From Chlorobiota bacterium (lineage in GTDB: Bacteria > Bacteroidota > Ignavibacteria > Tepidaquicellales > OLB5), in contig JAKEEM010000054.1 in the NCBI GenBank assembly GCA_022616535.1, positions 1-57,751 on the forward strand: a DNA stretch of 57,751 nt, in the 5' to 3' direction. This document shows, in pieces, positions 13,753-50,028 of this stretch. The translations under genes and the position numbers were made by a program. Below the pieces are notes generated by a model. The model was not told where the DNA came from. It did not search any database and saw nothing but the letters and a program-made list of their open reading frames with translations. The stretch's first letter is position 1; each line of letters begins with the position of its first letter.

Positions 13753-14424
13753 TTGACATACAAAACGATAATATTCATCACAGCATTTCTAATAATCGGT
13801 GAATCCTCATCATTTTCCCAATTTCCCGAAAATAAACTGAAACTTTTAGATAAGCCAATCGCTGAAAAAAAATTAACATTTGCAGATTCACTAAGTAAGG
13901 GTTTAAAACGAAGTAAATCAATAAGTGCGGTTTTTTTGAGCGTGGGTGGCGGGATTTCAGTCCCGCTTTCTCCTTTTAAAACAAGCTCCGACGTTACTTT
14001 TGGCATCCTTGGAAGAATAGAGTTTTCATCTTACGGAATTTTTCCCTTTGTAGTGGGTGGCGAGATTACTTACTTTTCTTACGCCGGAGCCGATGAATTT
14101 AAAACGATAAATTTACTGACCAACTTTAAGACTACGATGCTTTCTTACGGTCTAAATATCGAGTACTCGCTTGCCAAAATACTTCGCTCATCCTTCACAA
14201 TGCCCTTTCTGGCGGTTGATGTGAAATATAACAACATAAAAAGAGAGTACGATGAATCGAGAAATTTTACCGACCTGCCTAAAGAAGAATCGAAAATTAG
14301 CGTAGGGGCGGGATTCGGATTCACACTGTTTATTTTTGATTTCTACACAAAGTATAATTACATGAAAAATAATTCGCATATCGGAGTCTACACAAAAACG
14401 AAAATTCCTGTAATAAGGTTTTAG
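13753..14424 (+). CDS. Predicted outer-membrane beta-barrel protein, unknown function
   Basis: I do not recognise a named family. The 223-residue protein starts at TTG ten bases after the DUF2520 gene and has a signal peptide ending near SSSFSQ (residue 23). From about residue 58 it shows alternating hydrophobic/polar strands (VGGGISVPL, GRIEFSSYGIFPF, GGEITYFSYAG, VGAGFGFTLF, DFYTKYNYM) and a C-terminal aromatic residue (RF). That pattern fits a small barrel of about eight strands. It belongs to the forward run 9897-15498. Confidence 0.7.
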   Translation: MTYKTIIFITAFLIIGESSSFSQFPENKLKLLDKPIAEKKLTFADSLSKGLKRSKSISAVFLSVGGGISVPLSPFKTSSDVTFGILGRIEFSSYGIFPFVVGGEITYFSYAGADEFKTINLLTNFKTTMLSYGLNIEYSLAKILRSSFTMPFLAVDVKYNNIKREYDESRNFTDLPKEESKISVGAGFGFTLFIFDFYTKYNYMKNNSHIGVYTKTKIPVIRF

Positions 14425-16757: not shown

Positions 16758-19700
16758 TTACTTTACCACGGCAATTTTAATTGAAGCCGTTTCGCCGCAT
16801 CCGCCCTCAAGCTCAACTACCGCAATGTAAATCCCGCTCTGGACGGTTGATATATCCCATGGCACCTCATTATCGAATCCTTTATTTGTGGTGCCAGTAA
16901 GAGTCGTTACCAGCTCGCCGGATAAATCCATAATCTTAATGTTTACACTTGTAACATCACCATTTAAAAAGTAACGTATATTGGTTGATTTCCCGTACGC
17001 GGGGTTAGGCCAGTTGTAGACTTTATCGGAGGGCAAACATGGGCCTGTGGTAACTGGAATTACATTGTTAAGGTTTGAATTATGGTGGAAGATGTTTGTT
17101 AAATAATTTCTCCACTGAATTTTGCTTTGATTATATGTCCAGGGAGTTTTCCATCCGTATAAATTGCCATCAGTCGAGTAAACAACTATACCAAAGTTTC
17201 CTGCATAATTTATTATTGCAGGTGTTGATTTTACTTCTCCTCCGGTAAGCAGAGGAAAGCCATCTAGAATACTTCCATTGGCACTGTATGCGTAAACCCT
17301 GCCGTCGCCTGTTCCGAATATAACTTCATAAATTCCGTCATCATTTAAATCTGCAACGGAACATCCGCTTGAGATTTTATTCACACCCGCAATACTAAAT
17401 GGAAAGTTATCAAGAAATGCTCCGAAATGATTCATTGCAATAATTTTATTATCTGCTGTAAAAATTATGTCATTTGACCCCATACTATTTAAGTTTGATA
17501 CAACAGGCGTAGAAAAAATACTGCTAAAAGTAGTCCCCGATAATAATTGTCCAGTCCTGAACATAATTTTATTATCATTTGAAATGATAACAGGGTCACT
17601 TCCTTCAGGATCAAATAATACTCCCGGCTGGTCTATAAAAACTCCTTCCGAAAAATACTTATTGCTCTCATCTATGTGGCTCAAGTTAGCCAATGGTGAG
17701 CCATCAAGCGTGTGGAGCGACAAAGACACAATTCTGCGATTAGATACCGAATCGTAGTTTAACGATTGTGAATTCAAATTAAGCTTACAAATTTTACCGT
17801 CCGCAGTTCCAAAATTAAAACTTGAATCAATTAACAGGTATAGTGAAGGGGTAGTAATCAAACTGTTTGATGCAAATTGAATTACATTCGGCGCAGAAGT
17901 TAATGTATCAATTGTAAAGTTTATGAGATTAATTTTATTGTCATTTGAACTGATTAAAAAACCAGTTAAATTATTTATAGTGATAGATGTATGACTAACA
18001 ATATAATTAGCAACTGTATCCATTAAAAAGCCGTTCGGCATGTCGATTCTTATTGAATTGCCGTTATCACGGAATCCATACAGACTGTCTTTTACATTTA
18101 CAAAAATTTCATCAAACCCGTTGCCGTTATAATCAAATCCAATCGGCTGAGCGTTGCCTGAGTTATCAACTCCAACATAACGCGGAAAAGTATTAATATT
18201 GGTAATATTTCCGCAAAGCTGGTAGTTGAACGTCATCGATGGACCAATCTGAGTGAAATTGGTTATGCAGACACGTGAATTAATATTCGAATAGCTTTTG
18301 GAGTTTGGAATGCTTGTGGGAGTAAACTCATTTTTATAAATATTAGCAGGTCTGTAATGGTTGCCGTTATACCAGAAATCAACGAAGAAACCATCGCTGA
18401 TTAAATCGCCTAATGGAGTAGACACAACAACACCTATATCCTGCGAGCCCTTTGCTTCCTCAACGTCAACGCCGCGGTGCTTAATATCAACATTGACTGT
18501 ATTTGAGGCAATATTTGCATCGATGACGTTTTCATCTATATGCCATATTAATATCCCGCCCTGAAAATCTGCCGTATCGTTTTTAAGTCCCGGCACACTC
18601 CAGTCAAGCTCGTCAACGTCTACAATGCTGCCTTTAAGAGCCGAAATATCGGCACTATTAAAACCATCGACATCCTTTAGAAATTTAATTGAATCTCTGA
18701 CACCGTTTCTCACAAAGTAAACCGTCTGCCCGTTGCCAAGTGCATCGCGGTTGCGGTTTTCAATAAGAAAATATTCCTTAGCGCTGATTAGAACTTTGTA
18801 AACGGATTCATTACCGTTAAAATCAATCGATGACGCTTTTGTAGTATAAGTTCCGTTTGAGCTGACAAGCACCGGCTCAACCCAGCCAAGATACTGCTTT
18901 TCCCAAGCAGAGGGCTCAGGCGGAAAAACACCGAGATAGCTGAAAATCCCCTGCCCGTCCATTAGCCCGAAGCGTCCAATTGCCGTTCTTCCTGTTCTGG
19001 TGTCGAATAAATCAGGCAGTCCCAAATAACTGCCGATTGTTCCGACAACTATACCGTTGAGTCCAAGCTCCAGAAACACATCACCGAATGATGAATTTAC
19101 AATTCTCCACTCCTGCTCAGGTAAAATGCATGAGCCGGAAATTATTAATCCCTCGTTAGTATAATAACCCTGTGTTGTATCTCCGTATAATGATTTAAGA
19201 GTACTAATGCCCATAAAAATCGAAGGCAAATCAAGCTCACCCTGGAAAAAACCGGATAAATCCACATCTCTTCCTACTCCCGCGTGAAATATAATGAATG
19301 CTGAATTGGAAGCGTTAATTCCGGAAAAGTCTATAGTACTATCCGCCGAACGCCAAACGTCATAGAAGAGATTTCCCATTCTTAAAAGACTCTCGTTCCT
19401 GCGGGGCGAGTAAGCCTCCATCTCATTTGAAAGATTTCTAACAGTAGGTAAAAGCGTGTAATTAATTATCAGATTGCCTTTTGAAGCTTTAAAATAATAG
19501 TTTTTCAGAAATTCAAGTTTATAGGTAAAATACAGACTGTCATGAGGAGGTGCATCAACTGAATCGGGATAGCTGTTTGACAAGTTGAATCTCCCGTTTC
19601 CTGTTGTTTGATTATTATTATCCGGCTTAAACTGAACCCTTATGGCATAAACGTTCAAAGTCTCAGGAGCAAACGAACGAAAAAGGGAATTGTCATAATA

Positions 19701-19856
19701 GCTGACTTGTTTTAACACAGGGTGATAATTTAACGGGTGGCTAAGCTTAGGGGTAAATTGAAATTTACTTTGGGAATGAATATTAAACTTTACGGATATT
19801 AACAGCAGTATAACCGTTAATATCCGTAAGCTGAAAAACGGATTTATAATTTTCAT
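16758..19856 (-). CDS. M6 metalloprotease-like secreted protein with dead active site and T9SS sorting domain
   Basis: The 1032-residue product has a signal peptide (about 1-29), an M6 (immune inhibitor A-like) peptidase region to about 480, a beta-propeller/FG-GAP-like region (about 560-930) and a T9SS type A sorting domain at the end (NWPNPAYGKST to KIAVVK). In active M6 enzymes HExxHxxGLPDLYD binds zinc. Here the aligned segment is G272-T-I-G-S276-YLGLPDLFD, so both histidines and the glutamate are gone while the flanks are kept. It follows porV by six bases in the porU-porV transcription unit, so it may be a T9SS accessory or surface protein and not a protease. Confidence 0.82.
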   Translation of the reverse strand: MKIINPFFSLRILTVILLLISVKFNIHSQSKFQFTPKLSHPLNYHPVLKQVSYYDNSLFRSFAPETLNVYAIRVQFKPDNNNQTTGNGRFNLSNSYPDSVDAPPHDSLYFTYKLEFLKNYYFKASKGNLIINYTLLPTVRNLSNEMEAYSPRRNESLLRMGNLFYDVWRSADSTIDFSGINASNSAFIIFHAGVGRDVDLSGFFQGELDLPSIFMGISTLKSLYGDTTQGYYTNEGLIISGSCILPEQEWRIVNSSFGDVFLELGLNGIVVGTIGSYLGLPDLFDTRTGRTAIGRFGLMDGQGIFSYLGVFPPEPSAWEKQYLGWVEPVLVSSNGTYTTKASSIDFNGNESVYKVLISAKEYFLIENRNRDALGNGQTVYFVRNGVRDSIKFLKDVDGFNSADISALKGSIVDVDELDWSVPGLKNDTADFQGGILIWHIDENVIDANIASNTVNVDIKHRGVDVEEAKGSQDIGVVVSTPLGDLISDGFFVDFWYNGNHYRPANIYKNEFTPTSIPNSKSYSNINSRVCITNFTQIGPSMTFNYQLCGNITNINTFPRYVGVDNSGNAQPIGFDYNGNGFDEIFVNVKDSLYGFRDNGNSIRIDMPNGFLMDTVANYIVSHTSITINNLTGFLISSNDNKINLINFTIDTLTSAPNVIQFASNSLITTPSLYLLIDSSFNFGTADGKICKLNLNSQSLNYDSVSNRRIVSLSLHTLDGSPLANLSHIDESNKYFSEGVFIDQPGVLFDPEGSDPVIISNDNKIMFRTGQLLSGTTFSSIFSTPVVSNLNSMGSNDIIFTADNKIIAMNHFGAFLDNFPFSIAGVNKISSGCSVADLNDDGIYEVIFGTGDGRVYAYSANGSILDGFPLLTGGEVKSTPAIINYAGNFGIVVYSTDGNLYGWKTPWTYNQSKIQWRNYLTNIFHHNSNLNNVIPVTTGPCLPSDKVYNWPNPAYGKSTNIRYFLNGDVTSVNIKIMDLSGELVTTLTGTTNKGFDNEVPWDISTVQSGIYIAVVELEGGCGETASIKIAVVK

Positions 19857-19862
19857 TTAAAT

Positions 19863-21002
19863 CTATTTCTTGGGTTGTTCTTCGACCTTCTTCTCCTCGG
19901 GTTTCTTTGTTGCTGTTTCATCCTGTCCGAAATTTACCGAGAGTGTAAACCTTAAGGTGTTTGCAAGCGGATGGTTCTCTTCGATTGTATTAATGTAGCT
20001 GAAATCAAATCCGTAGAGGCTGTATCTTATGCTTGCACCAAGGGTTATGAATTTTCTTTTACCTTTATTCGGGTCTTCGTAAAAGAACCCGCCTCTTAAG
20101 CCGATGAGCTTTGGATTGCCATACCAGTATTCGGCACCGACGGAAGTTTGAATTGACTTCATTACATTGTTAAATCCGCCTCCAAACGATGTAAATATGG
20201 CTTTGTATACGGGGTCAGATTCAGGTCCGTTTCTTTTAACAAGAAGCTTTGCGAAATCGAGTGTTAAGGTTAAATTATTAAACTCGCTTTGATATATATC
20301 ATATCCAAATCCAAGACGAAGGTTTGTCGGCAGAGGGTCAGCCTGGGCATTATCAACATAAGTAACTTTGGGCCCTATATTTGAAATGTTTAGCCCAATG
20401 CCAAGCTTGTTATCGATAAATTTCAGCTTTGTTTTTGAAGGTTTCCAAAGACCGGAAATATCGAAGCTTAGGTCATAGGCCGTTCCTGTTCCTTGTTCAC
20501 CTGCAACCGGATCGACCGCCAGCTTGCTGTATATAAATCTTGTTACAATTCCTACCCCTAAATCCCTAGTTACCTTTGTACCGTATCCCACAGCCAAAGC
20601 GCCGTCAAAAGCCTGGTAGTCGCCTATTTCATTTCCAAACTCATCTGTTTTTATGATTTTACCTATATTCAGATATGTTATGCTCACGCCAAGGGTCCCC
20701 TTCAGCTTTTTAAGATGATACTTTGCGCTTAAGTAATCATAAAACAGGTCCGAAAGCCCCAGACCCGGCAGCCATGGCGAATGTGTAATCGTAACCTGAA
20801 TCCCTTTTTGAAATGCAAGTCCTGATGGATTCCAGAACATTGCCGAAGCATCGTTAATAAGGCCTGTTCCTGTTTCACCCATGCCTGCATTTCTGGAATT
20901 TGGCCCGATTAAAAGAAAGGGCACTGCCGATTCGCCCTGAGCCAAAATCCTGCCCGATAAAATTACTGAAATCACCAGAGCAATCACTTTAAATTTGAAC
21001 AT
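19863..21002 (-). CDS. porV: Type IX secretion outer-membrane protein PorV
   Basis: PorV is a FadL-like 14-strand outer-membrane barrel that receives T9SS cargo from the translocon and hands it to the PorU sortase. The 379-residue protein has a signal peptide, the family opening FLLIGPNSRNAGMGETGTG and NDASAMFWNPSGLA (about 50-63), and barrel strands up to LRFTLSVNFGQ. A charged lysine/glutamate tail (TKKPEEKKVEEQPKK) is an extra after the last strand. Adjacency to porU is the conserved arrangement of the two genes. Confidence 0.92.
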   Translation of the reverse strand: MFKFKVIALVISVILSGRILAQGESAVPFLLIGPNSRNAGMGETGTGLINDASAMFWNPSGLAFQKGIQVTITHSPWLPGLGLSDLFYDYLSAKYHLKKLKGTLGVSITYLNIGKIIKTDEFGNEIGDYQAFDGALAVGYGTKVTRDLGVGIVTRFIYSKLAVDPVAGEQGTGTAYDLSFDISGLWKPSKTKLKFIDNKLGIGLNISNIGPKVTYVDNAQADPLPTNLRLGFGYDIYQSEFNNLTLTLDFAKLLVKRNGPESDPVYKAIFTSFGGGFNNVMKSIQTSVGAEYWYGNPKLIGLRGGFFYEDPNKGKRKFITLGASIRYSLYGFDFSYINTIEENHPLANTLRFTLSVNFGQDETATKKPEEKKVEEQPKK

Positions 21003-21057: not shown

Positions 21058-24000
21058 TTACTTCAAAACCGCTAACTTACCCGTGCTTGTAATCGATGAA
21101 CCTTCGGAGGTTTCAACGATTAATTTGTAAATATAAATACCATTTCCTAAAGTTTCGCCGTCTTCATCTTTCCCCGTCCAATTTATAACGACAAACTTAT
21201 CGGAAATGCTGTTTTGTTGTATTTCTTTAATCAGCCTTCCGGCAACTGTATATATTTTAATTTTTACGTTAATATCGGTTGGGTAATTATGCTGGAACGT
21301 AAATGCTGTGTTATCCTTAAACGGATTAGGATAATTATATACATTAGTTACCTGCAAAACACCAGAAGTAGATACATTGAACTCAAGGGTTGACTCCGAA
21401 GAATTATTGTATGTATCCCATGCCTTAAATCTTAAAGTATGCCTGCCTATAGAAATGCTTGAAAAATCATACTCAATGGTTCCTGACCTATAAGACGTAT
21501 CGCTAGTATAGAAATTAGAGAGGTCATACTTATTATTTTCGTTTTCATCCAGAACCGCCTCGAGCTTATGCCCGATAGTTCCGGTAGTATTAATTCCCGA
21601 TTCATCGAACAAATCTGCAATGAATTTAAAATTTTCATTTACTATGTCACCGGTTCTAAAGTTCCTGTTATTCAAATACAGGCTGATTTGGGGACCTGTT
21701 GTGTCAATCGGCGCATCAGGGTCTATTCCTCCAACTATGAAATTCCTGTAAATCCCGGCACCGTCTGCCTGGTTGTTGAAGAAATAGTTAATAAATCTTC
21801 CGTTTTGATTAAGGTATGAAATATCTTTGGGGACTATGTATTCGACAACCCACTTTCCGTTGTTAATTATTTGGGTGCCTGAATAAATTATGCCTCCGTT
21901 TTGCCTGAAATTATGAACAGTCGGCGGACACTCCGGATCGGCTAAAACAATCTGCCTGTCGACATCATAAATTTTAAGCACTATTTTACCGTTATAATCA
22001 TTCCAAATTGATGAATCAGGCCTTAGAATGGAGCCGTAAATCTTTATTCTGCTCAAAGCCCTCATAGTATCTCCGCTTAAGCCGCTGATACTGTCAATAT
22101 GCGAGCGGTATCGGGGCATCTGAGTTCTTATTGTGGGGTCGCACAATAAAACATATTTCAAATCGTTTACCTGAAACAGGGATTGTTTTGTTTGAAACAT
22201 CGCTGCTCCGAATCTTTTCTGTAAAAGCAGAGTATCTCTCGGTATATAAAGCCAGTCAAATAAATTGTAGAAAAAGGTAGCATTGCTTTCAGCATAAACG
22301 GGCCTGGTTGCGGCTACCGTGCCAATTGCTCCTTTTCTTGGAGCAAGCATAAACAGTTCGCCTGCACTTTTATTTGCGGGATTATCGAACTTGCTCATAT
22401 CGCAGCTTGCTATGGTAACAAACGGATATTTGTTAACGTTATTTATCTGGCTTACTATGTTATCTTTCTCGAGAATATACTCGTGCGCCCAAATATCGGG
22501 GCTGCCGTGTCCTGTATAATGAATATTCAGAACTCCTTCGGTCCAATACTTTGCAATATCGCTGTTGACCTGTGGTTTCCTTCTGCCCTGAGGCGTTATT
22601 ACTGTTGGGTAGGTAACAATGTAAGCTTTTACCTTATCAATATATGCCGGCGTGTGCAGCTCGGCCAGAAGTTCCGCCTGCTGTAAATGCTGGATAAATT
22701 CGCATCCCTCGGAAGTTCTCTGGTCGTCTGCAACGAAAAACATTCTGTTTTTCCAGTAGCCGTTATTTACTCCGCTTTCATATGCATCAATTTTATCAAG
22801 ATATTCGTTAGCTTCCTGAATTGAAGCTGCAGGAATTCTGCCGTGGGCTATATCGGGAGGAGAGTTCTGAGGAAAATTATTTCCAGTCACGTTTGCGAAA
22901 TAATCGTCGGATGTAAAGCCCTCTACCTGGTGAATGCAGGGACTGGAATATTCATATGCGGGCACGAAATTCTTGTTGTAACCCAAAATGTCCTTATAAT
23001 CAAAGCTCCCGTCGCCGAAAAAGCATACGTAAGACGGTCTTATGTTCCAGTTGAAAAAAGCATGCTTTAAGAAATCCCTTATTGCCACCGCATCTAAAAC
23101 CCCGCCTGAAAACTCATTGTAAATTTGCTCGGTGGTTATAATCATGGTTTTCAGATAATTAGGATTTCCCTGTCCCCCCGATTCTCTTTTGTTTTTCAGC
23201 CTTTCGGCTGCTGTTATAAAATCCTTATGGGTAACAATAATAAAATCCGCTCCACCGGTTATGCCTCTTAAATTCTGATTTGGGATTCGTGAAGTGATTG
23301 CTGTCGGGGTTTTAAATCCGTTTTGCCCCACAACAAAATATTTGCTCAAATTCCCCGAAGTTTCGGTTTTCTGAAAGCGAACATTGGACGAGGTAACAAT
23401 CAACGGCTGGATACGTTTCAATTCATTGTGTTCTGTTACGTTAAATACTTTTATGTTATTGTTTGAAAAAGAAGAAACATTATATTCAACTGTTCCGCTT
23501 ACATTTGGCGATTCAAACCTTAATACATCTCCCTGTGCACTGTTTAATCTTCTCTTATACTGAATCTCCATCCAGTCAAGATAGCCTTCTGCTTCACTGC
23601 TTGAAGCCTGGTATGTTGCTCTGAATTTACTCTGTTCTCCGTTTGTTTTTTGAGACTGATTAATCGTAAAACTATACGGATTTGTATCGGTCCAAATCCA
23701 GCAGCCAAATCCGCCTTCAGCGTTCTGCATTTGATAATACAATTCCGACATAGTTGAATAATCTTCCCTGATAAGCATATTATTGGTATTTGGGCTTAAA
23801 CACCTAGAAGCGGGCTTTATTTTATATAAAATCTGGCTGCCGGCTTCAAGCCCTGTGAGCGTAGTGTTCCATTCAAAAGACTGCCCGGAACTCTTCCTGA
23901 AGCTTAGCCACAAATTGCCCTCATTAATCAGATTCGTCTGCTCTGGCTCATAGAAAATTCTTTCAAGAAAAGAAGACGGAATAATCGGGCTGCCAACGTT

Positions 24001-25227
24001 TTCAGAAGGCACTAGCTGCATTCTTTTGCCGTTATTAGGTGTATTGATACAGATCCAATAATAATTAGAGCGTGTGTAATAATTGACATAATGATTATAC
24101 TGGTTTGTGGACGTATCATATCTCCAGTTATTAATCGCTTTGGCATAGAAAAGCACATAATCCTGTTCATCAAAGCTCCCGTCGTTTTCACCTTCTATAT
24201 AAATTGCCAGCTCTACCAAATCATCAGGCCGGGGGTCATTGAGTCCTTCGGGGAGAAAATCGCCTCCGTTGCCGAACATTTTAATTTTTCTTGGGTCAAC
24301 ACCGGAGAAATTTATACCGGCGCCCTGTAAAAAGCTTTTGGTAAGCTTGTAAATTCCTTCGCTTGTTGAGTTGCCCCCGTCATCTTTTATTTCTATCTTA
24401 TACCAGTCTCCGCTTGAGAGCGCACTGCCGCCGCCTCTTATATTGTCTTTTAACACAGAACGAAATTTAGGACTCATCCAATTCAAAGCAATGTCGGAAT
24501 TCAATGCTAACCCTCTTAATAATGAGACCTCTTCCCTTGTCCTCGGTCTGTTTAATAAAACGGGAGCTTCGCCAAAATTAATCCTTACTCTGAGCCTTGA
24601 ATAAACTTTTAAAGTTCTTGTTACAGGATTGTATTGGTAAGGATATAAAACTATATTCCCCAAAGAAAGCTCTCTTAAAGCACCCGCGTCGATAAATGAA
24701 GCAATGTTTTCGGGTATGAACTTATTTTTGGAATATTCCGAATTCTTATTGTATGTATAGTATAAATCTTCAAAACTTCTTGAGTAAGGATTTCTGAAAT
24801 TTGCCTGAGGAATAGGAGAAAGATTCACGCTGTATTCCTCTTTAACATCATAGTCCAGAACCTGAACGGTATTATTAAGCTCAGAGGGTGTAAAAATCGC
24901 AAACCTTCTGCTTCTTATATCCGGGCTGCCTGATTTATCGAAGCTGTTTGCGGATGCACTTCCGAAATCATAGATCGAAAACCCTTCGCCGTTATACCAA
25001 ATTTCTCTTTTAAATATTTTAGGATAATACTCAAACTCAAGATATGAGGAATTTGAGCTTATTATCTTGTAATCAGATTCAACTTGATTAAATAAATAAT
25101 CCTCTATCCGGGGTACTTTGGACGAATAGTTATCTGTGCTCCTTGTTAAAACATCTTCATTTTGAGCAAATAAAACAGAACAAGCGTAAAATAAAAACAC
25201 AATTAGAGAATTCTGAATTGCTCTCAT
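21058..25227 (-). CDS. porU: Type IX secretion system sortase PorU
   Basis: PorU is a gingipain-like (C25) cysteine transpeptidase at the cell surface that cleaves the C-terminal sorting signals of T9SS cargo and attaches A-LPS. The 1389 residues comprise a signal peptide, a long N-terminal beta region, the C25 caspase-like domain (about 655-1010), an Ig-like region and a C-terminal sorting-like domain (from about 1290, YNYPNPFKDNTAF). The catalytic dyad is intact: H907 in HYTGHGSPD and C942 in TIASCDMS. It heads the unit with porV and the M6-like gene, and a hairpin with a U-tract lies in its leader. Confidence 0.95.
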   Translation of the reverse strand: MRAIQNSLIVFLFYACSVLFAQNEDVLTRSTDNYSSKVPRIEDYLFNQVESDYKIISSNSSYLEFEYYPKIFKREIWYNGEGFSIYDFGSASANSFDKSGSPDIRSRRFAIFTPSELNNTVQVLDYDVKEEYSVNLSPIPQANFRNPYSRSFEDLYYTYNKNSEYSKNKFIPENIASFIDAGALRELSLGNIVLYPYQYNPVTRTLKVYSRLRVRINFGEAPVLLNRPRTREEVSLLRGLALNSDIALNWMSPKFRSVLKDNIRGGGSALSSGDWYKIEIKDDGGNSTSEGIYKLTKSFLQGAGINFSGVDPRKIKMFGNGGDFLPEGLNDPRPDDLVELAIYIEGENDGSFDEQDYVLFYAKAINNWRYDTSTNQYNHYVNYYTRSNYYWICINTPNNGKRMQLVPSENVGSPIIPSSFLERIFYEPEQTNLINEGNLWLSFRKSSGQSFEWNTTLTGLEAGSQILYKIKPASRCLSPNTNNMLIREDYSTMSELYYQMQNAEGGFGCWIWTDTNPYSFTINQSQKTNGEQSKFRATYQASSSEAEGYLDWMEIQYKRRLNSAQGDVLRFESPNVSGTVEYNVSSFSNNNIKVFNVTEHNELKRIQPLIVTSSNVRFQKTETSGNLSKYFVVGQNGFKTPTAITSRIPNQNLRGITGGADFIIVTHKDFITAAERLKNKRESGGQGNPNYLKTMIITTEQIYNEFSGGVLDAVAIRDFLKHAFFNWNIRPSYVCFFGDGSFDYKDILGYNKNFVPAYEYSSPCIHQVEGFTSDDYFANVTGNNFPQNSPPDIAHGRIPAASIQEANEYLDKIDAYESGVNNGYWKNRMFFVADDQRTSEGCEFIQHLQQAELLAELHTPAYIDKVKAYIVTYPTVITPQGRRKPQVNSDIAKYWTEGVLNIHYTGHGSPDIWAHEYILEKDNIVSQINNVNKYPFVTIASCDMSKFDNPANKSAGELFMLAPRKGAIGTVAATRPVYAESNATFFYNLFDWLYIPRDTLLLQKRFGAAMFQTKQSLFQVNDLKYVLLCDPTIRTQMPRYRSHIDSISGLSGDTMRALSRIKIYGSILRPDSSIWNDYNGKIVLKIYDVDRQIVLADPECPPTVHNFRQNGGIIYSGTQIINNGKWVVEYIVPKDISYLNQNGRFINYFFNNQADGAGIYRNFIVGGIDPDAPIDTTGPQISLYLNNRNFRTGDIVNENFKFIADLFDESGINTTGTIGHKLEAVLDENENNKYDLSNFYTSDTSYRSGTIEYDFSSISIGRHTLRFKAWDTYNNSSESTLEFNVSTSGVLQVTNVYNYPNPFKDNTAFTFQHNYPTDINVKIKIYTVAGRLIKEIQQNSISDKFVVINWTGKDEDGETLGNGIYIYKLIVETSEGSSITSTGKLAVLK

Positions 25228-36187: not shown

Positions 36188-39100
36188 ATGCATAAAAAAG
36201 AAGAATTTTCCCCGATGAATGAATTAAAATTAAAACACGGATTCCATTACGAAGACTTGTTTGAACCCTTAAAGCTTAAGGAGCTTGCAAATAAATTCTA
36301 CGATTTTTACAAAAATTCAGACCCTTCCTCCTTTGAAAAATTTGCAAAATACAGGGATTCAAAAGGAGCGGGATTTAATGAAATTGAAACCTCAAACATT
36401 ATAATAGAAGCAGGCAGGTTTTTAGATACATTTATTGCCGATTTCTTCGGAATTAAAGAGCAAGCTGAAGAGCTGAAAAGAAGCAATGAATCCGAAAAAG
36501 CAATATTAAAAGTAAGAAGTGAATTTGTTACACGCAGGGTTTTAAAAAAGTTTAAGGAGCCTGATTTAGCTTCGCTAAAATATGCTGAACTTGACTCACA
36601 AGTTCAAATTTTGAAAGATGTTCTTTATCCTGATTACCAGTGGAACTCCGACGAGGAAAAAGCCACGGCATTTATGATTCGTGATTTTCTTGGACAGGAG
36701 TTAAATTACAAAAACCATCTTGAAGTTATGCCCGGAGGCTTTGTATTCGATGAAAAGATTGTGGAAAAAGCTGGAGAAGATTTTAACAAATTGAAAAGCT
36801 CCGAAAAAGGGAAAATCTTTACCGAAAATCTAACAATCGGCACATACAAAAATACAGAAGGAACAGATGAACAGAAGCTTCTCTACGAATATTTAAAAAA
36901 TATAATGGAGTTTCTGCAGAAATGGTGCTTTGCGAAGATTCATACTGAAAAGCATAAAGTTAAAAACTGGGTTCTGTTCAAGCAGCCGATGAATGTAGAT
37001 TTTAACGACCTGGTGCACAATAAAGCTGTTTATCAGAATATTCCGGAGAAGATGCAGGGTGAAGTTGATACTCTGCGCAGAAGGGACGGCTTCAAGCTCA
37101 CCAATAAAAGATACAACGACCGCATGGTTATGGGCGAAGTTGAATACTGTGTATTCTGCCATGAAAGAAATAAGGACTCCTGCTCCAAGGGTCTAAAAGA
37201 AAAAGACGGAGCTGTTAAAAAAAATCCTCTCGGCATAGTTTTAAACGGCTGCCCGCTTGATGAAAAAATTTCCGAAATGCACCTTTTAAAGTATGAAGGC
37301 CGCTCGGTCGGAGCGTTGAGCTTGATAATGATTGATAACCCGATGTGCCCGGGAACCGGACACAGAATCTGCAATGACTGTATGAAGGGATGCATTTACC
37401 AGAAGCAGGAACCCGTGAACATTCCGCAGATTGAAACAAGAGTGCTGACCGATGTGCTGAATCTCCCCTGGGGATTTGAAATTTATTCGCTGCTAACCAG
37501 GTGGAATCCGGTAAACGTGAAAAGACCATACCCGCTTCCTTATAACGGAAAAAACATAATGGTCATCGGAATGGGACCCGCAGGCTATACTCTAACACAG
37601 TATCTTTTAAATGAAGGTTTCGGTGTAATCGGTGTCGACGGGCTTAAAATTGAGGCGGTTCACAAGGATATAACCGGGGGACTGGACGAAAACGGAAATT
37701 ACATTTATCCAAAGCCGGTTGCAAAATTCAGCGATATCGAAGATGAACTTGATAAACGAATATTTCTCGGCTTCGGCGGGGTATCAGAATACGGTATCAC
37801 AGTAAGGTGGGATAAAAACTTCCTTAAAGTAGTCTACCTCACTCTTGCAAGAAGAAAATATTTCAAGCCATATAACGGAATTAGATTCGGAGGAACTATT
37901 GAAATCGATGACGCGTGGAAGCTCGGCATAGACCACATCGCAATCGCGACGGGAGCAGGTAAGCCCACAATTGTCCGCATGAAAAATAACCTTATCAGGG
38001 GCATTCGCAAGGCATCTGATTTCCTTATGGCGCTTCAGCTTACAGGCGCAGCTAAAAAAGATTCACTCGCTAACTTAATGCTCCAGCTTCCGGCAATTGT
38101 AATTGGGGGCGGATTAACTGCTATCGATACTTCCACCGAAGCGTTTGCATACTACCCGATTCAGGTTGAAAAGTTTCTTAACAGGTTTGAGATTTCAGTA
38201 AAGGAGTTCGGAGAAGACACTGTTTGGGCAATGTATGATGACGAAGAAAAATCCATTGCAAAAACTTTTATTGAGCACGGTAAAGAAGTCCGAGCCGAAA
38301 GAAAGCGCGCGGCTGAAAAAGGCGAGGAGCCGAACTTTGTTCCGCTGGTCAGGAAATGGGGCGGCGTTACGCTGGTTTACAGAAAATCAATTGAAGAATC
38401 GCCCGCATACAGACTCAACCACGAGGAAATTATTAAGTCGCTTGAAGAAGGAATTTACTACTGGGAAAAAATGAGTCCGGTTGAAGCAGTACCTGACCAG
38501 TACGGTGCTGTGAAGGAAATGGTTTTCTCGAAGCAGACCAAAAACTCCGAAGGCAAATGGATTGACCTCGGCGAAAAAATTACGCTCCCCGCAAAATCGG
38601 TCCTTGTTGCGGCGGGTACATCGCCGAACATAATTTACGAACGTGAGCATCCGGGAACGTTCCAGCTTGATGAGCGGGGAAACTTCTTCCAGACATACAA
38701 GCTTGATGGAAATAATAACCTTATAAAAGCCGAAAAGAATGAAACGGGATTTTTCACTTCTTATAATAAAGACGGAAAATTTATTACAGTTTACGGTGAC
38801 AACCATCCGCGATACGCCGGCAACGTTGTTAAAGCAATGGCATCGGCAAGAGACGGCTTTAAGGAGCTGATTAAAATCTATAAAGATGATATTAAAGAAC
38901 CCCGAGAGCTCGGGGCCGAAAATGATGAAAAATTCAAATCGCTTGTTGGTACGCTTGATAATGAATTCCTCGCAGTAGTTGAGGAAGTAAATATTCTAAC
39001 CCCAACCATAGTTGAAGTTGTTCTCAAAGCACCCCTGCAGGCGCGGAAATTCCACCCCGGGCAGTTTTACCGCCTGCAGAATTACGAGACAAACGCGCAG

Positions 39101-39943
39101 AGCATTAACGGAACAAGCATGATGATGGAAGGGCTTGCATTAACCGGCGCGTGGGTCGATGTCGATAAAGGACTTTTGAGCTTAATTATACTTGAAATGT
39201 GGGGAAGCTCGCGCTTATGCCGCTTCCTTAAAAAAGGCGAGAAGGTAATAGTCATGGGTCCCACGGGCACGCCCACGGAAATTCCGACAGGTGAAAATGT
39301 TCTGCTTGCAGGCGGGGGACTAGGAAACGCAGTGCTGTTTTCTGTTGCAAAGGCGCTTAAGGATAACGGCAACAAGGTAATTTATTTTGCAGGATACAGA
39401 AACTCAGGCGATTTGTTTAAGCAGGATGAAGTCGAAGAGGGAACAGACCAGGTAGTGTGGTCGAATGATTTCGGCGAGCAGATTAAGCCGCGCAGACCGC
39501 AGGACAGAACCATTACCGCAAACATAGTGCAGGCGATGATTGCTTACGCAGACGGCAAGCTTGAGCCAAATGGTACAGGTCCAATGTTCGACCTGAAGCA
39601 GGTTAACAGGATTATTGCAATCGGGAGCGACAGGATGATGAAGGCGGTTAAGGAGGCAAGATACGGCGTGCTGAAGGATTATATTAATCCCGTTCACACG
39701 GCTATTGCAAGCATAAACTCAACAATGCAGTGCATGATGAAGGAAGTCTGTGCGCAGTGCCTGCAGCGCCACGTTGACCCCATAAGCGGGAAGGAAACTT
39801 TTGTGTTCAGCTGTTTTAACCAGGACCAGCAGATGGATTTGGTTGACTTCAACAATCTTAACGCGCGGCTTAAATCCAACAGCGTGCTTGAAAAGCTGAC
39901 CAAGTTCTGGCTGGATTATTTGTTTAAGAAAAGCTTGCCTTGA
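36188..39943 (+). CDS. Giant FAD/NAD(P) oxidoreductase with Cys clusters, GltD-like core and PyrK-like C-terminus
   Basis: This 1251-residue cytosolic redox protein is multidomain. Residues 1-310 are helical and unrecognised. A cysteine-rich segment follows (C321, C324, C332, C355, C387, C395, C398, C402) of the kind that ligates iron-sulfur clusters in GltD-type proteins. The FAD-binding GMGPAG is at 461-466, with a second nucleotide motif IGGGLTAID near 632. From about 960 a ferredoxin-reductase/PyrK-like module has HPGQFYRLQ, GPTGTP and GGGLGNAV, ending in a C1182-x5-C-x2-C1191-x17-C1209 cluster. It probably shuttles electrons between NAD(P)H and an unidentified partner. Related to glutamate synthase beta chain and sulfhydrogenase gamma, but function is not known. 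Confidence 0.85.
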   Translation: MHKKEEFSPMNELKLKHGFHYEDLFEPLKLKELANKFYDFYKNSDPSSFEKFAKYRDSKGAGFNEIETSNIIIEAGRFLDTFIADFFGIKEQAEELKRSNESEKAILKVRSEFVTRRVLKKFKEPDLASLKYAELDSQVQILKDVLYPDYQWNSDEEKATAFMIRDFLGQELNYKNHLEVMPGGFVFDEKIVEKAGEDFNKLKSSEKGKIFTENLTIGTYKNTEGTDEQKLLYEYLKNIMEFLQKWCFAKIHTEKHKVKNWVLFKQPMNVDFNDLVHNKAVYQNIPEKMQGEVDTLRRRDGFKLTNKRYNDRMVMGEVEYCVFCHERNKDSCSKGLKEKDGAVKKNPLGIVLNGCPLDEKISEMHLLKYEGRSVGALSLIMIDNPMCPGTGHRICNDCMKGCIYQKQEPVNIPQIETRVLTDVLNLPWGFEIYSLLTRWNPVNVKRPYPLPYNGKNIMVIGMGPAGYTLTQYLLNEGFGVIGVDGLKIEAVHKDITGGLDENGNYIYPKPVAKFSDIEDELDKRIFLGFGGVSEYGITVRWDKNFLKVVYLTLARRKYFKPYNGIRFGGTIEIDDAWKLGIDHIAIATGAGKPTIVRMKNNLIRGIRKASDFLMALQLTGAAKKDSLANLMLQLPAIVIGGGLTAIDTSTEAFAYYPIQVEKFLNRFEISVKEFGEDTVWAMYDDEEKSIAKTFIEHGKEVRAERKRAAEKGEEPNFVPLVRKWGGVTLVYRKSIEESPAYRLNHEEIIKSLEEGIYYWEKMSPVEAVPDQYGAVKEMVFSKQTKNSEGKWIDLGEKITLPAKSVLVAAGTSPNIIYEREHPGTFQLDERGNFFQTYKLDGNNNLIKAEKNETGFFTSYNKDGKFITVYGDNHPRYAGNVVKAMASARDGFKELIKIYKDDIKEPRELGAENDEKFKSLVGTLDNEFLAVVEEVNILTPTIVEVVLKAPLQARKFHPGQFYRLQNYETNAQSINGTSMMMEGLALTGAWVDVDKGLLSLIILEMWGSSRLCRFLKKGEKVIVMGPTGTPTEIPTGENVLLAGGGLGNAVLFSVAKALKDNGNKVIYFAGYRNSGDLFKQDEVEEGTDQVVWSNDFGEQIKPRRPQDRTITANIVQAMIAYADGKLEPNGTGPMFDLKQVNRIIAIGSDRMMKAVKEARYGVLKDYINPVHTAIASINSTMQCMMKEVCAQCLQRHVDPISGKETFVFSCFNQDQQMDLVDFNNLNARLKSNSVLEKLTKFWLDYLFKKSLP

Positions 39944-44470: not shown

Positions 44471-45445
44471 TTACAACAGCTCCATAGTTTTCAAATCATC
44501 AATTGGTTCATCAAAACTGCAGCTGCCGTAGGAAATTATAAATTTTTCTCGCGCTTCTCTTATTTGCGAGTTTGATACTTCAATTTCGTTCCATTCAAAC
44601 CCGTCCTCTTTAAACACAAACTCATAAGGGTCTTCATCATTTAAAACACCCAGCAACTCTTTTTCATCGAGATTGTTGGTATATGCGAGTATGCCGCCGC
44701 CGAACACGTTAAAAAAACCATGAAAATAAGCAGAAATATTTTCATTAAAATGCTTTATCGGATGATGAAGTCCGGCTGTGTATTTCATCGGAATATTAAA
44801 CTCACAGCATGCCATAATAGCAAAAGCTATCTGTTCAGATTTTGGAAATGCTATTGCCTCGGTTCCGCCTGTTCTTAACTTAAAACCGCAATTTCTGTCA
44901 AGACTTGCGATAGTTTCAGCAGTTCTAGTAATAATTGATTCGTATTGATCACTTGTCTCTGTCTCAAAAAAAACAGGAATTTCTGCACCAAGTTCTTTTT
45001 CAAGACCAGTTGAAACATCTATCATTAAATCTAGCATATCATCATTATTTTCCCTTTCTATAACTTCTATAGGCAATCTGACTTCAAAAACATCCGAACT
45101 TACAAGCTGGCGATTTTTATTTTTAAATTCATAAATATTTTTAACATCATTTGTAAAATTTTTATTGAAATCCGGAGCAGTTTCTCCTCCTGTTCCAAGG
45201 AAAGAAAATGGGATTTGTCCGCCTATTTTCATTTCAGTGATTAATTTGGAAAGTTCGATTAGCCGGCCGGAAGGTACAACAAACTTATTCAGCATCCATT
45301 TATATTCTCCCTGAGAATAAAATACATAATTGTGGAAAGACTGTGCCAAATTTAAGTTTGCAGGAGGGAAAAGTCCCGCATAATCAATTAGCTTCTCGGT
45401 AAAAATTTTCAAGCTTTGAATCGGTTTTCTGTGATTTGAAGACAT
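44471..45445 (-). CDS. Uncharacterised protein coupled to fumarylacetoacetase
   Basis: I do not recognise a named family. The 324-residue protein has no signal peptide and shows the alternating strand/helix pattern of a TIM barrel: EVRLP, IPVFFETE, GFKLRTGG (187-194), MKYTAGLHHP (220-229) and FGGGILAYT. The R-T-G-G and T-A-G-L-H-H-P motifs look like conserved active-site loops. The stop codon touches the fahA ATG with no bases between. A role in tyrosine breakdown is inferred from that coupling alone. Confidence 0.8.
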   Translation of the reverse strand: MSSNHRKPIQSLKIFTEKLIDYAGLFPPANLNLAQSFHNYVFYSQGEYKWMLNKFVVPSGRLIELSKLITEMKIGGQIPFSFLGTGGETAPDFNKNFTNDVKNIYEFKNKNRQLVSSDVFEVRLPIEVIERENNDDMLDLMIDVSTGLEKELGAEIPVFFETETSDQYESIITRTAETIASLDRNCGFKLRTGGTEAIAFPKSEQIAFAIMACCEFNIPMKYTAGLHHPIKHFNENISAYFHGFFNVFGGGILAYTNNLDEKELLGVLNDEDPYEFVFKEDGFEWNEIEVSNSQIREAREKFIISYGSCSFDEPIDDLKTMELL

Positions 45446-48844: not shown

Positions 48845-48852
48845 TATCTTTG
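48845..48852 (+). promoter_or_regulatory. -7 box TAnnTTTG for the AlkX-like gene
   Basis: TATCTTTG matches the consensus exactly and overlaps the alternative TTG codon at 48850, which argues that translation starts at the ATG at 48871. Confidence 0.5.
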
Positions 48853-48870
48853 TATTCATTTATTTCAAAA

Positions 48871-50028
48871 ATGAAAGCAGAAACAATTTCTATTCAGGAA
48901 GCACGTTATTTAGCTCTCCACAACCAGCTTTTGCTAGATACCCATCTGCATAAGACGAAAAAAGACCTGCTTAAAATAATCGAGCAGCTGGGATATGTGC
49001 AAATTGATACTATTTCAGTGGTCGAGCGTGCGCATAAGCATGTGCTATGGACACGGTTTCCTTCATATAAAAATGAAATGCTTGACGAACTCCTTGATAA
49101 AGATAAAAAAGTTTTTGAGTTCTGGGACCATGCTGCAGCTTACATGCCGATGAAACACTTCAAATTTACATATCGCAGAAAAGAGCTCTACTGGAATAAA
49201 TATAAAGCATGGAGAAAAAAAAATTTAAAGCTCCTTAACTATATTCTTGAGAGAATTATAAATGAAGGACCCTTGCAATCACGCGATTTTGAGAATCCTT
49301 CAAAGCGGGGGCTGTGGTGGGACTGGAAACCGGCTAAGGAAGGGCTTGAATACTTATTCCACAGCGGTAAGCTTGCAGTAAGAGCGCGAAAAAGCTTTCA
49401 GAAAGTCTACGACCTGCCAGAACGGGTGCTGCCAAATAACATTGAAACCAAAACACCGACAGAAGAAGAGTATTCCACACATTTAATAATGAAATCTATC
49501 GCTGCAAACGGATTTGCATCCGAAAAAGAAATAATATATTTAAGAAACCATGATGCAAAAGCAACAAAATCAGCTTTAAAATATTTAGCTGAAGATAAAA
49601 AAATTATTCCTTTAAAAATTAATGGAATAGATAACGAAATTTATTATACAACTAAGAATAACCTTAAGCAGCTTGAGACAAAAAAGGATGATAAACACAT
49701 TCATATACTTTCACCATTTGATAATCTTGTAATTCAAAGAAAAAGACTGAATACTTTATTTAATTTTGACTACGTTATTGAATGTTATGTTCCTGCTCGT
49801 AAAAGGAAATACGGTTATTTTTGCCTTCCTATTCTTTATTCTGACAGGTTCATCGGACGTATGGATGCGAAAGCAGACAGGAACAATAAAGTTTTTAAAG
49901 TCATAAACGATTTCCGAGAAGATGGTATTAACTTAAACGGAAAGGTCAAAGAATTATTTGATAAAGAGTTAAAAAAAATCGCACTTTTCGCTGGGTGCGA
50001 GGAAATTTCATATCTTAAAGCTACTTAA
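48871..50028 (+). CDS. YcaQ/AlkX-like winged-helix DNA glycosylase
   Basis: The 385-residue protein belongs to the HTH_42 family (tandem winged-helix domains) of E. coli YcaQ, which unhooks interstrand DNA crosslinks and excises N7-alkylguanine. The catalytic motif is Q44-I-D46 in GYVQIDTISVVERAHKHVLW. The Q-x-D form is that of YcaQ/AlkX, whereas Streptomyces AlkZ has Q-x-Q. The C-terminus retains IGRMDAKADR. It has its own exact -7 promoter and terminator-bounded position between two paralogous receptors. I choose the ATG at 48871, since an earlier TTG sits in the promoter. Confidence 0.9.
   Translation: MKAETISIQEARYLALHNQLLLDTHLHKTKKDLLKIIEQLGYVQIDTISVVERAHKHVLWTRFPSYKNEMLDELLDKDKKVFEFWDHAAAYMPMKHFKFTYRRKELYWNKYKAWRKKNLKLLNYILERIINEGPLQSRDFENPSKRGLWWDWKPAKEGLEYLFHSGKLAVRARKSFQKVYDLPERVLPNNIETKTPTEEEYSTHLIMKSIAANGFASEKEIIYLRNHDAKATKSALKYLAEDKKIIPLKINGIDNEIYYTTKNNLKQLETKKDDKHIHILSPFDNLVIQRKRLNTLFNFDYVIECYVPARKRKYGYFCLPILYSDRFIGRMDAKADRNNKVFKVINDFREDGINLNGKVKELFDKELKKIALFAGCEEISYLKAT

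Follow-up and report, generated by a model that had tools for sequence, protein, structure and literature searches.

The window, a 57,751-nucleotide contig, carries on its minus strand a gene for an inactive M6-like protein (M6i) behind two genes of the T9SS, porU and porV:

21058–25227, minus strand: porU, the T9SS sortase, upstream of porV (NF033707, 938.5 bits, cut-off 420; Peptidase_C25)
19863–21002, minus strand: porV, the type A shuttle protein, directly upstream of M6i (NF033710, 277.7 bits, cut-off 250)
16758–19856, minus strand: M6i gene, inactive M6-like protein with a T9SS sorting domain, 1032 aa (open reading frame; NF052323.1, 757 bits)
19773–19856, minus strand: predicted signal peptide, residues ~1–28, IHS/Q (by eye; model helix; similar N-termini in relatives)
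18222–19667, minus strand: pseudo-M6 domain, residues 64–545 (model, InhA2 match, profile match to active M6, near-invariant columns)
19002–19043, minus strand: GTIGSYLGLPDLFD, residues 272–285, in place of HExxHxxGLPDLYD of active M6 (alignment)
17142–18209, minus strand: beta-propeller, residues 550–905, poorly conserved in sequence (YxaL and BamB matches)
16761–17024, minus strand: type A T9SS sorting domain (CTD), residues 945–1032, seven strands (PF18962, TIGR04183, model strands, 6za2)

The M6i start lies 6 bases past the porV stop in the open reading frames, as the first-pass annotation of this DNA had stated. Elsewhere in the window, a 1251-aa fused oxidoreductase is encoded at 36188–39943 (plus strand), with its best NCBIfam match to a bifunctional glutamate synthase beta/polyprenylphenol hydroxylase type (622 bits, below the cut-off of 1072). 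Frames of 324 aa (44471–45445, minus strand) and 223 aa (13753–14424, plus strand) have no Pfam match, and a 392-aa frame (48850–50028, plus strand), which sits between two TonB-dependent-receptor-like genes, has no NCBIfam match.

M6i matches NF052323.1 at 757.1 bits (cut-off 600), with residues 47–1032 covering profile positions 37–1043. This NCBIfam equivalog (T9SSA_dep_M6i) is named "T9SS-dependent M6-like inactivated metalloprotease", and its domains, motif loss and sorting domain are all the same as those of M6i, with no difference found. NCBIfam has on record both the loss of the zinc site and the dependence on the T9SS, and the newness in this lineage suggested at first pass is not supported, since the protein is already named and is found in many families. 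The family name mentions neither the porV linkage nor a function, and our literature search found no paper describing the NF052323 family or its role. New here are the count of porV linkage, the constraint on the dead domain, the fold match to InhA2 and the persistence of M6i without PorU.

Where active M6 enzymes have HExxH, M6i reads G272-T273-I-G-S276-Y-L-GLPDLFD. We compared M6i, as profiles, with a reference set of five M6 domains from related genomes that have an intact HExxH. The hhalign match (probability 99.9, E 1.2e-31, 333 columns) places the HExxH columns securely and pairs GVFCHEYGHALGLPDLYD of the HExxH-bearing M6 with GIVVGTIGSYLGLPDLFD at the zinc segment. Both histidines and the glutamate are therefore lost across G272–S276 while the surrounding loop is kept, as first described, and the Asp of GLPD is invariant in all 81 aligned M6i proteins. 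None of these orthologues, drawn from ~25 families of the phylum, has HExxH anywhere in its sequence. The first His column holds Ala (71 proteins), Ser (6) or Gly (4), the Glu column Ser (50), Asn (18), Thr (7) or others (6), its residue kinds being S/N/T/Q/M/I, and the second His column Ser (60), Asn (20) or Gly (1). The first-pass annotation had asked whether most porUV-adjacent orthologues keep the motif, which would have meant lineage-specific decay; none does, and such decay is ruled out by this count together with the position of the dead domain as the most conserved part of the protein. In a tree, M6i forms one clade separate from HExxH-bearing M6 domains (SH-aLRT 99, with long branches among the active rows), a separation that appears moderately firm, and one ancient loss of the motif would be the simplest reading. 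A different zinc site, the other objection foreseen at first pass, is not evident in the sequence: no Cys is conserved among the 81 proteins, and the conserved H191 and H439 look structural because they lie within the HAGxG and HID motifs common to active M6.

AlphaFold2 was run on the family alignment, both for the whole protein (mean pLDDT 87.9) and for residues 60–545 alone (93.7). The pseudo-M6 model matches InhA2 of B. anthracis (4yu5) at Z 22.1 over 374 residues with 16% identity; the two InhA2 entries, 4yu5 and 4yu6, score Z 22.1 and 21.5 over 374–376 residues, the next entry drops to Z 9.8, and Foldseek returns InhA2 at E 1e-12. The match came only from the domain-alone model, the propellers having filled the whole-protein fold search, and a sequence search of the PDB with M6i matched CTDs and propellers and not M6. 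Residues 550–905 resemble the propellers of YxaL (Z 28.9) and BamB (Z ~26). The structure comparison proposed at first pass and the profile match agree with its statement that the M6 fold is kept without the catalytic residues. By ancestry and fold M6i belongs with peptidase family M6; it lacks the HExxH of that family, with GTIGS in the window protein, and at 57.7 bits falls below the cut-off of the TIGR03296 M6 domain (110.8). Immune inhibitor A (family M6; InhA2 4yu5/4yu6) shares fold and sequence ancestry with M6i, whereas M6i is without HExxH and has a propeller and a T9SS CTD after the M6 part.

Among 102 near-invariant columns of the alignment, 88 fall in the pseudo-M6 domain, 2 in the propeller and 12 in the CTD, and by this measure no part of M6i is better conserved than the dead protease domain. 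Because such strong constraint acts on a domain without zinc ligands, we infer a binding role. The same conservation, with several acidic residues of the domain invariant besides the GLPD Asp, could also indicate that the domain is still catalytic through another metal site or other chemistry, but we consider this highly improbable given the want of a conserved Cys, the apparently structural H191 and H439, and three catalytic columns that hold small residues of several kinds. Inactive animal metallopeptidase homologues of the ADAM22 type bind other proteins (reviewed in PMC11266112); they share with M6i a peptidase fold without catalysis and differ from it in family and setting. A decoy or inhibitor of an active M6 enzyme was also considered and rejected, since TIGR03296 passes its cut-off in just 5 of 31 genomes tested and an active cousin is thus usually not evident.

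The distribution of M6i was read in 296 sampled genomes of the phylum, where NF052323 gives 109 matches above the cut-off of 600 and five more long matches below it; genomes of the sample carry one full-length copy each. Most relatives with a name are from records labelled Ignavibacteria, and the rest from Kryptonia, Melioribacter, Chloroherpetonaceae and others; a record labelled Melioribacter roseus (L168), a cultured carrier, has the gene. Viral contigs gave no M6i match. Of 80 neighbourhoods from ~25 families, 79 have porV as the next gene upstream of M6i, in the same orientation and at a median gap of 15 bases (300 bases or less in 78), and the full order porU-porV-M6i is found in 71. The place beside porV is fixed, then, and not peculiar to the window. 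Pairwise distance correlations over 72 genomes are similar (M6i–PorU 0.92, M6i–PorV 0.88, PorU–PorV 0.92), as expected for genes inherited together.

Of 73 genomes in the window's class, a total that includes the window's own, 27 are without M6i, as are most sampled genomes outside the M6i-bearing families. PorV matches were found in 37 of 37 M6i-less genomes tested, and in most of the 35 M6i-less loci read porU-porV is followed by genes other than M6i, so M6i does not occur wherever porU-porV is present. Since sister families with porU-porV are without it, M6i is not essential for T9SS in general. Mapped on a tree of PorU, presence or absence of M6i takes 8 changes, whereas shuffled labels take 25.4 on average; there are large clades with and without M6i, and isolated losses as well, for example in G239 next to G085. 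D217 of PorV (78 of 80 PorV with M6i, 9 of 35 without) was tried as a signature tracking M6i and found unusable, because several M6i-losing genomes keep D217 and the shorter loop is bound to one lineage. This loop, near residue 217 of the window PorV, is ~3 residues shorter in most M6i-less genomes of the window's class (loci L233–L267) and looks lineage-bound rather than tied to M6i.

PorZ, a surface protein of the T9SS as M6i would be, likewise has a propeller and a CTD, and unlike M6i it has two propellers (PMC5562754) and no M6 domain. This likeness (PorZ 5m11 is Foldseek rank 5), together with the order porU-porV-M6i in 71 of 80 loci, would suit a surface subunit of the attachment complex that sits beside or in place of PorZ and feeds or regulates the PorU sortase. 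M6i, however, has no match to the PorZ N-terminal propeller domain (PF21544), for which the window's genome has a separate match (E 2.7e-8), and PorZ coexists with M6i in that genome and in most M6i genomes, which rules out M6i as a PorZ replacement. The PorU catalytic domain is, moreover, missing from nine M6i genomes, eight of which also lack a PorZ match, and we regard an attachment-complex subunit as improbable.

These nine genomes (G266, G203, G108, G235, G171, G119, G274, G081 and G061), all of one family (f30), carry M6i and PorV and have no PorU match outside the C-terminal region. SprA is full length in all seven tested (G266, G203, G108, G171, G274, G081 and G061), PorZ is not listed in eight and is weak in G274 (E 4.6e-5), and porV and M6i are still adjacent in G266, G203 and G274, whose loci were read with flanks (L088–L090). 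Type A CTD matches number 7 in G081, 8 in G061, 10 in G235, 17 in G266 and 32 in G108, and at least 150 in the window's genome. Because nine genomes keep PorV and M6i without PorU, M6i follows PorV and not the sortase, and the tie to the porU-porV unit drawn at first pass is better drawn to porV. M6i goes with PorV, not with CTD removal by the sortase, yet it can be lost: f30 genomes G250, G151, G286 and G227 have PorV and neither PorU nor M6i. In all, 13 f30 genomes encode PorV and CTD-bearing proteins, with SprA in 9 of 9 tested; none has a PorU sortase domain, and most have no PorZ either, so that a T9SS apparently runs here without its sortase. In the window's own genome, but outside the window (G000:C9:29765–34537), a frame of 1625 aa matches PorU in part (283 bits) and ends in a PorU-like C-terminus; it may be a PorU2, the kind for which NCBIfam has the entry NF052324.

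In the T9SS studied so far, type A proteins are picked up by PorV at SprA, kept at the surface and then handed on to PorU, whose partners are PorQ and PorZ (PMC5562754, PMC10994853, PMC12618676). M6i has the features needed for this route. Its model has a hydrophobic N-terminal helix (residues 6–23), which with the by-eye call and the similar N-termini of relatives supports the signal peptide predicted at first pass. The sorting domain noted then is recovered by both PF18962 (38.2 bits, cut-off 27) and TIGR04183 (26.1 bits, cut-off 23), the PDB sequence search matched it to the PorU CTD 6za2, and the Lys near the C-terminus is present in 73 of 81 M6i. The modelled CTD has seven strands over ~88 residues and no extra hairpin; the uncleaved CTDs of PorU and PorZ bear such a hairpin, which was found functionally irrelevant (PMC11285876). 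Within the window's genome, an M6i CTD profile scores PorU at 39 bits and six cargo proteins at 45–61 bits, a weak indication of cargo over PorU resemblance because the cargo was picked by its similarity to M6i; a PorU-like CTD was set aside on these scores. The M6i sorting domain has the look of a cargo CTD and not of the PorU and PorZ type, which is longer and uncleaved. Given this likeness and the missing hairpin, it is quite possible that PorU removes the M6i CTD where PorU exists, in which case M6i would count as cargo, though an unusually constant one.

The main rival explanation is that M6i is an ordinary cargo which has been retained to an unusual degree. It could be, for example, a lectin, adhesin or coat protein at the surface, its gene co-transcribed with that of the shuttle and its CTD removed by PorU, with no role in secretion. 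Beta-propellers are common in surface binding proteins, the CTD is cargo-like in length, strands and profile score, and whole families with porU-porV do without M6i. What such a cargo leaves unexplained is the fixed place behind porV (79 of 80 loci, ~25 families), the single full-length copy in each sampled genome, and the retention of M6i with as few as 7–10 type A CTD matches and where PorU is gone. We hold this explanation to be possible but somewhat doubtful.

The reading that we find likeliest, and to which we give an even chance, is that M6i works with PorV as a surface protein that is exported by the T9SS and has no catalytic activity; it might plausibly serve as an accessory or a scaffold. 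On this reading the M6 peptidase has lost its catalysis and would be made with a signal peptide, exported via the T9SS through its type A CTD, and collected by the PorV encoded just upstream. At the cell surface it would act by binding, not cutting: the pseudo-M6 domain may hold PorV, a cargo chain in transit or a glycan at the surface, the variable propeller may give reach or species-specific contacts, and M6i would serve the PorV step and not CTD removal by PorU. Such a PorV partner is supported by the absence of HExxH from all orthologues alongside an InhA2 fold far above the next entry, by the near-invariant columns of the dead domain, and by the porV linkage with its distance correlations. 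The retention of M6i and PorV without PorU, with SprA full length, and its persistence at 7–10 type A CTDs (G081, G061 and G235) point the same way, as does the known ability of PorV to hold type A proteins at the cell surface (PMC5562754, PMC12618676). The case for a PorV partner is weakened by the sister families with porU-porV and the four PorU-less PorV genomes that are without M6i, by the cargo-like CTD (seven strands, ~88 residues, PorU scoring below cargo), and by the operon linkage, which also fits a cargo made with its shuttle. A stronger version, which we think unlikely, is that M6i is a dedicated part of the T9SS, a surface protein to or by which PorV hands or holds type A proteins, working without PorU and PorZ and with the dead M6 groove gripping the polypeptide next to the CTD.

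To our knowledge, nearly all that is known of the T9SS comes from Porphyromonas and Flavobacterium. M6i is single-copy, fixed behind porV over much of a phylum and kept without the sortase, which makes it a clear candidate for a part or an obligate client of the shuttle step, in a role that may go unseen in the usual model organisms. It would further provide a case, in bacteria, of a dead metallopeptidase that has been conserved and put to a new use.
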